A stretch of DNA of 48,609 nt, from positions 1 to 48,609 of the forward strand of contig JACQVI010000141.1 of NCBI GenBank assembly GCA_016209795.1, given 5' to 3'. Shown here piece by piece: positions 30,818 to 34,171 of this stretch. The position numbers and the translations under genes are program-made. Position 1 is the stretch's first letter; each line of letters opens with the position of its first letter. The notes under the pieces were generated by a model. That model made no database searches. It was not told the DNA's origin and was given only the letters and a program-made list of their open reading frames with translations. The DNA comes from Ignavibacteriota bacterium. Its GTDB lineage: Bacteria; Bacteroidota; Ignavibacteria; UBA10030; SZUA-254.

Positions 30818-30905
30818 GTAGAGTGAAGTAGAGAGTTAGACAATACCGCAGTATATGATTCTGGGATTTATCAAAAGAACAAAGAGTAACTACATTCACT
30901 ATCCA

Positions 30906-32483
30906 ATGTTTAGAAAATTGATTTTTCCATTGATATTCGATGCACTCATTGGGGTTGCACGATTGGCGTATGGACAAATCCAGCCAACTAATCCGGACAG
31001 CGCTCTTCAGATTATTCTTAGCCATTTGGAAGGAACATCTCTTTCTTTGACGGACGCTATGAAGTATGGATTGCAGAACGCGACATCAGTCCGCACTGCT
31101 GAGGCTACATATCTTGCAGCCAGAGGCGCCGCACGAAGAGAAGCAGGAGGTTTCGATCCTGAGTTGTTTTTCGCGCTGAACCATCTCGACCAGGAGCTAC
31201 CGACAGCCTCTTTCTTTTCCGGTGCACCAGTGTTGAGCACAACCCAAACCATCACCAGTGGTGGATTACGGATGGAGCTGCCAATCGGAACGAATATTGA
31301 AGCGTCGCTCAGCACCCTCCGATTAAAGACCAACTCTGCGTTTGCATTTTTGAATCCACAGTACACTGCATTTGGAAGCTTAAGTTTTCGACAACCGCTG
31401 TTAGGTGGACTCCATATCTCCGCCCGCAAACAAGCCAGAAAAGCTGATCAGGAAATGGAAGCTGCTAAAGCACGATACGATCAAGAAGTCCTTGCCATCA
31501 GCACGGAAGCTGAGCATGGGTATTGGGATCTCTACGCTGTCGAACGCGACTACGCCGTGCAAAAGCTTACACGCGACCGCGCCGAAGCGTTCCTGAGAGA
31601 AACAGAGTTGCGAGCCAAGACAGGATTGATCGGTCCAAATCAAGTTGCTAATGCTCGTACTTTTCTGGCGGAACAAGAAATTCTCTTACTCGACCGAGAA
31701 GAACAATTGGATCGACTTTCGGATCAGCTTGCCTCTTTGATTGGAACCAGACCCGACGCAGGACAACGTCGTTTCATCACAATTGACGATCCACCTGCTG
31801 AGTTTCCTCTTGAGGATGTCGATGCACTGGTACAACAAGCAATTCAAAACAATCTTGACCTTCAGGCAGCCAAGGCAGACGTTGAAGCAAAGCGGACATT
31901 ATCAAGTGCAGCATTCTGGGAAGCTCTGCCGAGCGTCAATCTTGTTGGCTCGCTTGGAGGAAGCGGTCTATTAGGAACACTGCAGGATGTTTCCTTTGGA
32001 GATACTACGTACCGTGCGCCATCTGATCGTCAAGGGCAGTTCGGAGATGTAATAAGTCAGGCTGTCAAGCGTGAGTTTCCATCGTGGAGTGTAGGTGTGG
32101 AAGTCAATATCCCAATTGCACTGCGAAGTGGATTAGGTGAAAAAGAACGACTGGAGGCAGAGGTGATGATGGCGGAACAGCAATATATTCAACAGGCAAG
32201 GATATTGGAAGAACGGGCACGCTCAGCGTACCGAGAGCTGTCGCATGGAAAGCAGCGATTGATTGCCGCTAGAGAAGGAGTTGATGCAGCCCAGGAGCAA
32301 GTACGCATCGGGTTGATTGAGTTTCAAAACGGGCTTTCAACGGCATTTGAACTTGTACGCCTCGGTGCGGACTTTGCTGTTGCTCAGCAACGATACTCGC
32401 AAGCATTAGTCCGTGGTGCCAAAGCCGCCGCTACGTTGAGGCAGTTAACTTCTGGCGAGTACAAGAGTGGTGCGGTACGCTGA
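30906..32483 (+). CDS. TolC-family outer-membrane channel of the RND operon
   Basis: A 525-residue outer-membrane factor. The frame opens at 30855, but ATG 30906 gives a proper signal peptide (MFRKLIFPLIFDALIGVARLAYGQ); the upstream ribosome site is weak either way. Two OEP repeats are visible, LSLTDAMKYGLQNATSVRTAEATYLAARGAARREAGG and LVQQAIQNNLDLQAAKADVEAKRTL, with long coiled-coil helices. The protein is longer than the other channel in the window because of loops near 80-150 and 350-390. It serves the adaptor and RND pump downstream, from which it is separated by the DUF559 cassette. Confidence 0.88.
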   Translation: MFRKLIFPLIFDALIGVARLAYGQIQPTNPDSALQIILSHLEGTSLSLTDAMKYGLQNATSVRTAEATYLAARGAARREAGGFDPELFFALNHLDQELPTASFFSGAPVLSTTQTITSGGLRMELPIGTNIEASLSTLRLKTNSAFAFLNPQYTAFGSLSFRQPLLGGLHISARKQARKADQEMEAAKARYDQEVLAISTEAEHGYWDLYAVERDYAVQKLTRDRAEAFLRETELRAKTGLIGPNQVANARTFLAEQEILLLDREEQLDRLSDQLASLIGTRPDAGQRRFITIDDPPAEFPLEDVDALVQQAIQNNLDLQAAKADVEAKRTLSSAAFWEALPSVNLVGSLGGSGLLGTLQDVSFGDTTYRAPSDRQGQFGDVISQAVKREFPSWSVGVEVNIPIALRSGLGEKERLEAEVMMAEQQYIQQARILEERARSAYRELSHGKQRLIAAREGVDAAQEQVRIGLIEFQNGLSTAFELVRLGADFAVAQQRYSQALVRGAKAAATLRQLTSGEYKSGAVR

Positions 32484-32512: not shown

Positions 32513-32565
32513 GAACTCACCCTAAATCCCTCTCTTAGAAAGAGAGGGACGGCAGGGATGAGTTC
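32513..32565. repeat. Left nested palindrome of the DUF559 cassette
   Basis: Outer arms GAACTCACCCT (32513-32523) and AGGGATGAGTTC (32554-32565) are complementary with one bulged base. The inner stem TCCCTCTCTT (32527-32536)/AAGAGAGGGA (32540-32549) is perfect with a 3-base loop. Total 53 bp, ending 18 bp before the nuclease ATG. Confidence 0.8.
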
Positions 32566-32583
32566 GATGGAAAGAGTTCAACA

Positions 32584-32979
32584 ATGCACAAACAAACAAT
32601 AGAAGCTGCCAAGCAGCGGTGTCGTGAACTGCACAAGCATCAAACACCAAGTGAGAGACATCTCTGGCAATCAGTTCGGAATCGGAGTTTTCTGGGGAAG
32701 AAATTCAATCGTCAGTTTCCGATCTTCTTCACGAACCCCTCCGGTACGGAAGGTTTTTACATCGCTGACTTCTATTGTCATGAACATCGATTGGTGGTCG
32801 AACTTGACGGCAAGAGCCATTATTTTCAGCAGGAGTACGACGCAGAAAGGTCAGATATCCTTCACGGAATGGGACTCCAAGTTGTGAGATTTCGCAACGA
32901 TGAATTGGCAGCGAACTTTGATGATGTGTTGCAGCGCTTAAAGAAAACGCTTGGAACTCACCCTCATTCCCTCTCTTAG
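32584..32979 (+). CDS. DUF559 endonuclease-domain protein (Vsr-like fold)
   Basis: A 131-residue protein of the DUF559 family, related to very-short-patch-repair and restriction-type PD-(D/E)XK nucleases. Recognised order: QTPSERHLWQSVRNRSFLGKKFNRQFPI (20-47), YIADFYCHEHRLVVELDGKSH (59-79) and HGMGLQVVRFRNDEL (94-108). Likely catalytic residues are E25, D62, E73 and D75, with H79 in ELDGxxH. The domain ends near residue 123; the last eight residues, GTHPHSLS, and the TAG stop are encoded by the right-hand palindrome. It lies in the same orientation as the efflux genes around it but is functionally unrelated. No clear Shine-Dalgarno precedes ATG 32584. Nicking or cleavage activity is inferred from the family. 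Confidence 0.85.
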   Translation: MHKQTIEAAKQRCRELHKHQTPSERHLWQSVRNRSFLGKKFNRQFPIFFTNPSGTEGFYIADFYCHEHRLVVELDGKSHYFQQEYDAERSDILHGMGLQVVRFRNDELAANFDDVLQRLKKTLGTHPHSLS

Positions 32980-33036
32980 GAAGAGAGGGACTTTTCCTCT
33001 TCTCTTTTCAAGAGAAGGGGTCAGGGGATGAGTTCC
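32953..33036. repeat. Right nested palindrome of the DUF559 cassette
   Basis: Outer arms GGAACTCACCC (32953-32963) and GGGATGAGTTCC (33025-33036) enclose two perfect hairpins: TCCCTCTCTT/AAGAGAGGGA (32968-32990, identical to the left element) and CTTCTCTT/AAGAGAAG (32999-33017). The nuclease stop codon (32977-32979) lies in the loop of the first hairpin. Total 84 bp. Confidence 0.8.
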
Positions 33037-33073: not shown

Positions 33074-34171
33074 ATGGTCATAATGAAAACAGTAGCTCGA
33101 GGATTATTTCTCTCGATACTTTATATCTCAATTGCTTTGTTACTGATCGACTGTGGAGAAAACAAAGGCAGCGGTGGGTTCTCGATGCCACCCATGCCTG
33201 TGGAGGTCAGTCAGGTCAAATTCCGAAAGGTTGTCGATAAGTTTGAAGCAGTCGGCACGATCGAAGCAATTGAGGCGATTACCGTTGTTGCCGAGATTGA
33301 CGGCGCAGTGAAAGCTCTCCCCTTCAACGAGGGTGGTTTTATCAAACAAGGCGAAATCATCGCACAGCTCGATGATGCCCAGCTTGCAGCGGAAGTTGCG
33401 CGTGCGGAAGCCTTGCGGTCACAGAGCCAAGTAACGTACGATCGGGTGAAAGCGATTGTTGATCAAGGTGCTGGTGCTCCTCAAGATCTCGATGATGCCG
33501 CCGCAGCGCTGAAGGTCGCTCAAGCGAACCTCGATCTTGCCAAAGCACGCTTCGCAAAAACGAGGATTATCGCTCCCTTCGATGGGATTATTGGTGCTCG
33601 ACGAGTTAGTGTGGGAACTTTCATGCGAACGGGGCAGTCAGTAACAGATCTTGCGAACATCGATGAAATCAGAGTAACGTTTGCAGCCCCGGAGCGATTT
33701 CTCTCACAGCTTACTCGGGGTGCATCTGTTGCCGTTTCGACAACGGCATTTCCGGGGTATGAATTACAAGGAAAGATCATCGCAATCGAACCCATCATCG
33801 ATCCCACGACCCGAAGCACCCGTGTGGTTGCACGTGTTCAGAATCCGGAGCGAAAATTTCGTCCGGGAATGTCTGCCAATATCTCAGCCGTCTTGAGCGA
33901 GAGACCTAACGCCTTGACAATACCGAACGAAGCTGTCTTTGGCAGTGGAAACCAGATGTTCGTGTTTATCGTAAAGCCAGATAGCACAGTGGCTCGAGTT
34001 CCTCTCACACTCGGAACTCGACTTGCTGATGTGGTGGAAGTGCTGGATGGTTTGCAGCAAGGAATGACTGTAGTTCGGGCAGGACATCAAAAGCTGTTCG
34101 ATGGTGGAAAGGTAATGCCAATGACAAGCCAGACAGACATGCAATCAACAGAGACTAAGACTGGAGGGTAA
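33074..34171 (+). CDS. RND efflux periplasmic adaptor, probable lipoprotein
   Basis: A 365-residue membrane fusion protein. After a hydrophobic leader, LLLIDCG at 22-28 is a possible lipobox with C27 (Asp before Cys is unusual). Domains: barrel-sandwich halves TVVAEIDGAVKALPFNEGGFIKQGEIIAQL and IIAPFDGIIGARRVSVGTFM around a short helical hairpin, then the beta-barrel (FPGYELQGKIIAIEP), RPGMSANISAVL, and a membrane-proximal end. ATG 33074 is 9 nt after an AAAGG; ATG 33083 is possible. The stop overlaps the pump start by one base (TAATG), showing translational coupling. It joins the RND pump to the TolC channel upstream of the DUF559 cassette. Confidence 0.9.
   Translation: MVIMKTVARGLFLSILYISIALLLIDCGENKGSGGFSMPPMPVEVSQVKFRKVVDKFEAVGTIEAIEAITVVAEIDGAVKALPFNEGGFIKQGEIIAQLDDAQLAAEVARAEALRSQSQVTYDRVKAIVDQGAGAPQDLDDAAAALKVAQANLDLAKARFAKTRIIAPFDGIIGARRVSVGTFMRTGQSVTDLANIDEIRVTFAAPERFLSQLTRGASVAVSTTAFPGYELQGKIIAIEPIIDPTTRSTRVVARVQNPERKFRPGMSANISAVLSERPNALTIPNEAVFGSGNQMFVFIVKPDSTVARVPLTLGTRLADVVEVLDGLQQGMTVVRAGHQKLFDGGKVMPMTSQTDMQSTETKTGG

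Follow-up and report, generated by a model that had tools for sequence, protein, structure and literature searches.

The DUF559 nuclease gene in the window (the whole analysed stretch of DNA, 48,609 nucleotides in length) lies between nested palindromes in a one-gene cassette at positions 32513-33036. This cassette is probably a small mobile element, comprising the gene for a 131-aa nuclease and its own matched repeats, in which a repeat-specific enzyme would spread both the repeats and its own gene. The reading is built on the absence of the cassette from orthologous sites, the dispersal of gene-free repeats, a matching of nucleases and repeats that is independent of the host, the covariation of tag and stem, and purifying selection on the nuclease, each of which was shown by sequence comparison. 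DUF559 proteins form a widespread family without a settled role so far; no agent has been reported for the spread of BoxC, PIT and triplex repeats since their recognition in the 1990s, and DUF559 is one candidate gene family for that agent. The proposed mobile-repeat system would be parallel to that of REP/RAYT, with an unrelated enzyme. Its features and their setting are as follows.

30855 to 32483, + strand: left host gene, encoding an outer-membrane efflux protein (OEP/TolC type; PF02321)
32513 to 32565, no strand: left repeat of 53 bp, with tag GAACTCACCCT, hairpin at 32527-32549 and outer arm GATGAGTTC; third-strand fit of tag to hairpin, 10/10
32584 to 32979, + strand: DUF559 nuclease gene, 131 aa, ATG to TAG (PD-(D/E)XK/Vsr-like family; PF04480)
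32953 to 33036, no strand: right repeat of 84 bp, a complete unit with two hairpins and outer arms GGAACTCACCC / GGGGATGAGTTCC
32968 to 32990: hairpin 1 of the right repeat; third-strand fit, 10/10
32977 to 32979, + strand: TAG stop codon that ends the nuclease reading frame, at the loop of hairpin 1 in the right repeat
about 32996 to 33020: hairpin 2 of the right repeat, CCTCTTCTCTTttcAAGAGAAGGGG, with one mismatch and different from hairpin 1; third-strand fit, 11/11
33074 to 34171, + strand: right host gene, encoding an RND adaptor (HlyD/CusB-type)

The hairpin of the left repeat, TCCCTCTCTT-AGA-AAGAGAGGGA, is perfect at 32527-32549, and the same stem recurs, again perfect, at 32968-32990; the outer arms GAACTCA/TGAGTTC are present in both elements, as the original prediction had claimed. 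The left repeat is a single-hairpin form, shortened relative to the full unit. DUF559 is the sole gene within the cassette, other cargo being absent, and the cassette separates the TolC-type gene from the adaptor gene; its removal leaves a gap of ~66 bp, close to the ~68 bp given earlier. As had also been reported, no target-site duplication was seen at the cassette edges; such a duplication is unreadable at this locus because the flanks have diverged.

The orthologue of the adaptor was located in relatives, and the tolC-adaptor junction was compared in six of them. Five (G010, G006, G002, G018, and G012) have a gap of ~50-110 bp, measured between alignment ends, with neither such a palindrome nor a nuclease. 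The sixth (G008, locus L303) has a gap of 175 bp with no gene and what seems to be a degraded window-class relic, GGAGCTCACGCCCGGCCCCT...GATGAATTC. The prediction had named presence of the gene and palindromes at this locus in all relatives as grounds for its rejection, and the intact cassette was found in none of the six. Given the relatives' junctions that lack it, the cassette would have been either inserted here or lost several times, and insertion is the simpler reading. A base-precise empty site was not obtained at the tolC-adaptor junction, the flanks being too diverged, nor in Pontibacter, because the orthologous intergenic regions contain other sequence; a scan of the named genomes for close relatives with the window protein gave no match.

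Nor are the palindromes unique in the genome, a second outcome that would have counted against the prediction. The stem pattern, with up to three mismatches allowed, was found at 17 places in the 3.39-Mb source genome and its reversed control at none, so the recurrence is not a matter of chance; most of these places are without a DUF559 gene. Alignment of the copies gave a full unit of RAACTCACCCTaaaTCCCTCTCTTnnnAAGAGAGGGAC, a spacer of ~0-30 nt, CCCCTTCTCTTnnnAAGAGAAGGGG, and then GGGGATGAGTTY, with GAACTCAYCC as the consensus of the tag. Six DUF559 matches occur in this genome, that of the window included. The genes on contigs C8 (64% identity to the window gene) and C242 each contain one in-frame stop and have palindromes of the window type, those on C169 and C187 have palindromes of other classes, and that on C100, a 279-aa frame of a different subfamily, has no palindrome within 250 nt. 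Four window-class repeats (L007, L015, L016, and L017, on C1, C170, C250, and C7) were seen to be nested in a larger repeat whose ends resemble TGTTGAAAAACYTG; this larger repeat is probably a miniature element of transposon origin with the palindrome inside it.

The pairing of palindromes with DUF559 genes extends well beyond this genome. Some 150 neighbourhoods were examined, 73 from one order and the others from an independent set of named genomes covering Bacteroidota, Planctomycetota, Nitrospirota, Zixibacteria, Patescibacteria, Chloroflexota, Cloacimonadota, Desulfobacterota, Verrucomicrobiota, and other phyla, and most of the nucleases adjoin palindromes, at roughly 20-fold over the local background. 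Within 150 nt of the gene, palindrome density in the order set reached 9.9/kb on the upstream and 5.7/kb on the downstream side, and at distances beyond 300 nt it was mostly 0-0.4/kb. Within 200 nt in the multi-phylum set, palindromes were found upstream of 41/62 genes, downstream of 45/62 and on both sides of 32/62, compared to 23/655 control windows, and the tag CACACCCC occurred at 3.52/kb near DUF559 genes as opposed to 0.12/kb far from them (~30-fold). Thus, DUF559 homologues usually possess palindromes in both sets, where the prediction would have failed had they normally lacked them. Genes without palindromes numbered 15/73 in the order set under a strict short-loop definition (fewer with long loops allowed) and 10/80 in the named-genome set. 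Palindromes without a nuclease were found in two genomes (G003 and G011), and Pontibacter has dozens of gene-free copies vs. 2 DUF559 genes. DUF559 genes with G/C-rich palindromes nearby were also observed in Sinorhizobium (L280), cyanobacteria (L281 and L283), Neisseria gonorrhoeae (L279), and Azospirillum (L284), where the palindromes resemble abundant repeats of the respective genomes.

Comparisons among these sequences have shown the palindrome to follow the clade of the nuclease rather than the host. The k-mer overlap between palindromes was 0.164 for nucleases at least 50% identical in different genera, and 0.071 for nucleases 35-50% identical in one genome; 0/5000 within-genome shuffles of the palindromes matched the observed fit. 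Among 118 Bacteroidota genomes, at least three class-C palindromes were present in 13/17 with a clade-C nuclease (E <= 1e-32) and in 1/101 others, both cut-offs having been picked after the data were seen and the counts ignoring phylogeny; the alternative cut-offs of E <= 1e-34 and at least one copy gave 13/15 vs. 11/103 (p = 3e-9, phylogeny again ignored). Palindromes of the window class were found in 14/33 related genomes with any DUF559 gene and 2/26 without. The class-C palindrome was observed 109 times in one 4.3-Mb Bacteroidota genome (G215). The prediction's central idea, that of a REP-like element which encodes a nuclease of its own, is thus well supported, the relatives' junctions, the genome copies, and the DUF559 homologues all being in agreement, and its interpretation overall is partly supported; it had missed the outer arms as a third strand, the two-hairpin form of the full repeat, and the parallel with E. 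coli YcjD and BoxC.

The nuclease itself is a clear member of its family. The window protein matches PF04480 with 112 bits (cut-off 20.6; E 1.4e-32) and contains the conserved columns of DUF559 (D, E, G, H, D, and R), the acidic core included, and the gene is under purifying selection, with a median dN/dS of 0.12. The nearest solved structures are 3hrl, a DUF559 protein, and, with the family profile, 3r3p, the homing endonuclease I-Bth0305I; the latter match has an E value of 5e-6 with the profile and 0.12 with the window protein alone. Earlier reports assign the E. coli DUF559 protein YcjD to the PD-(D/E)XK superfamily, with Vsr among its relatives (PMC1189080), and describe VsrA of Caulobacter, also a DUF559 protein, as behaving like a Vsr-type repair enzyme able to damage DNA (PMC12907096). 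This work treats enzymes of the same superfamily, with the DUF559 domain, as repair-like or uncharacterised, and makes no link to repeats. Since its relatives Vsr and I-Bth0305I cut DNA, a cutting role for DUF559 is likely.

The outer arms of the repeats have a second partner. In a scoring that took each hairpin for the duplex and let the outer arm beside it supply the third strand by reverse-Hoogsteen pairing (G*G.C, A*A.T, and T*A.T), the arm proved a perfect third strand for all three window hairpins, and for this reason the repeats are predicted intrastrand triplex motifs of the kind represented by BoxC/PIT/TM of E. coli. The tag varies with the type of hairpin as the stems demand, CTCACCCT accompanying TCCCTCTCTT, and CTCATCCCC accompanying CCCCTTCTCTT. 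A third-strand fit of at least 90% was reached by 54.6% of hairpins in the order set, compared to 0.8% when the flanks were shuffled and 5.4% when they came from other units; the swapped-flank control reached 30% in the clade-C set, where it is less telling because the tags are alike. Of the E. coli elements, TM_ECO was found to form a triplex in vitro, and in vivo triplex formation by BoxC was not detected (PMC4666352). The architecture was described as widespread and tied to strain variability, with no mobility gene known, and the same 2015 survey noted that no mobility function had ever been found near the E. coli copies (PMC4666352).

In E. coli, ycjD is located between sapF and fabI, and its product matches DUF559 with 167 bits. 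The coding end of the gene overlaps a BoxC-like hairpin, and a BoxC copy lies ~160 bp beyond; the probable assignment of the adjacent repeat to BoxC rests on sequence and architecture. Position and architecture suggest that YcjD may be the partner of BoxC. A 65-bp query matched 13-28 places in the listed strains with a ycjD-adjacent copy and 1-19 in those without (medians 19 vs. 6.5, phylogeny ignored); a separate study places ycjD mainly in phylogroups A, B1, and C (PMC12817139). Strains differ in whether a BoxC lies between pstB and pstA, and at cpxA-yiiM (L291/L300/L301) and ypfG-tkt (L294/L298/L299) some strains have BoxC and others a REP-type sequence. The pstB-pstA site was rejected as a clean insertion, its 92-bp unit being bounded by direct repeats of AACCGTGT between which a deletion is equally possible. 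A palindrome of a different kind, TCACCTCATTCTGACAA, with a 17-bp stem, was observed upstream of ycjD (L277, 1936-1980). The window repeats and BoxC/PIT/TM_ECO (PMC4666352, PMC2267715) have in common a G/C-rich hairpin with an adjacent third-strand block, and the latter are likewise dispersed and strain-variable, with ycjD beside one BoxC copy. They differ in that earlier work linked no gene to the E. coli elements, whereas a nuclease family is linked here, and in that the Bacteroidota repeats insert inside reading frames too.

The mobile-element reading would operate as follows. Each repeat consists of a pyrimidine/purine hairpin and a tag able to lie against it as a third strand, such that a single strand could fold into an intrastrand triplex, and the gene-free copies would be dispersed, non-autonomous relatives. 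The DUF559 protein would recognise its own tag-plus-hairpin class, whether as duplex, single-stranded, cruciform, or triplex DNA, and nick or cut beside it; host repair may then copy either the repeat alone or the gene that two repeats enclose to a new place. The copying step is assigned to the host because PD-(D/E)XK enzymes have, to our knowledge, no strand-transfer step of their own. A wider form of this proposal is offered tentatively: throughout the bacteria, DUF559 proteins could be nucleases that recognise triplex repeats of matching sequence and spread these along with the genes that encode them. This would be the first mobile system based on triplex-forming DNA, YcjD and BoxC would be its model pair, and the G/C-rich palindromes interspersed in many phyla might have spread in this manner. 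If confirmed, the proposal would provide nucleases whose natural DNA targets are numerous and matched by clade, and the putative pairing of YcjD with BoxC makes the idea testable in E. coli K-12. In titles, abstracts, and passages of the DUF559 and ycjD literature (subscription papers and preprints lying outside this set), no link to palindromes was found; an earlier report is possible.

Mobility would also account for DUF559 domains found in frame within housekeeping and restriction-modification genes. Such insertions were identified in LeuRS of two genomes (L342 and L344), MetH (L345), HsdR of two (L343 and L349), an Eco57I-type methylase (L348), Mod methylases (L059 and L079), and a GH2 enzyme (L103), several of them edged by palindromes. 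The LeuRS of L342 aligns to a solved LeuRS through residue 300 and again from residue 461, which match chain positions 236 and 240, so ~160 residues have been inserted. Besides the cassette, the Mod gene of L059 contains a second palindrome that stands bare, and neither is present in a Chryseobacterium homologue. Automatic annotation would call such insertions domain fusions. The palindromic elements of Rickettsia also lie in frame within protein genes, with a different sequence and structure, and we know of no nuclease for them.

These insertions bear on the main rival, a pure homing model, in which some other process spreads the palindromes, DUF559 cuts gene-free repeats, and recombination copies the gene between two of them. 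Profile similarity to I-Bth0305I favours this model, as do the complete repeats on both sides, which supply homology, the gene-free state of most repeats, and the relic retained at the site by G008. It is nevertheless unlikely, since no repeat is present at five of the six empty orthologous junctions, homologues of the genes with in-frame insertions lack the palindromes that these bring along, and the number of palindromes tracks the nuclease, which a passive target would not need. The cassette resembles the Vsr-like homing endonucleases in its distant nuclease similarity and free-standing mobile gene, but has no intron or intein, is bounded by palindromes, and is accompanied by many gene-free repeats, with most empty sites repeat-free.

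Considerably less probable is a guard function, by which a host repair or defence DUF559 nuclease would cut hairpin, triplex, or mismatch structures and limit the repeats, its genes being found there because the sites are recombination-prone. The repair-like, DNA-damaging behaviour of VsrA, as given in PMC12907096, and the rearrangement of BoxC sites above the control rate (PMC4666352) are in its favour, but repeat number goes up, not down, with a matching nuclease, clade-specific matching across hosts would be unexpected, and the PADLOC defence search returned a single, very weak match (E 0.005). It is highly improbable that the repeats only terminate transcription of a small nuclease gene or form structures at the end of its mRNA: they do lie right at the gene ends, with the stop codon at a hairpin loop, but most copies are without a DUF559 gene, PIT/BoxC elements lacked promoter and terminator activity in earlier work (as cited in PMC4666352), and no Rfam family reached its gathering score for the repeats, the sub-threshold matches being microRNA look-alikes only. 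Least probable of all is the movement of the palindromes as REP elements by a RAYT (HUH, Y1 transposase) with the DUF559 gene as passenger, for despite nine Y1_Tnp matches in the source genome and a layout like that of REP beside RAYT, two genomes (G007 and G039) have DUF559 and palindromes with zero Y1_Tnp matches.

RAYT was also rejected as the mover upon inspection of nine Y1 genes, five from the source genome and four from relatives, none of which adjoins window-class palindromes; they have palindromes of their own instead. The mobile-element reading shares with REP/RAYT (TnpA_REP), REPIN, and BIME the repeats of tag and hairpin, the many gene-free copies, the one or few nuclease genes flanked by repeats, and the covariation of nuclease and repeat classes. 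The enzyme of the cassette, however, is PD-(D/E)XK-like and not HUH/Y1, and the window repeat lacks the GTAG tag, having instead GAACTCAYCC, which fits its hairpin as a triplex third strand. By this analogy the DUF559 system would work like RAYT with REP, through an unrelated enzyme and not as a member of that group. Near two Y1 (RAYT-like) genes of the source genome (L332 and L334), a TCGACGA..TCGTCGA hairpin was observed, and a related hairpin is inserted within a DUF559-class repeat (L016); from both observations, this genome may house two unrelated mobile-repeat systems.
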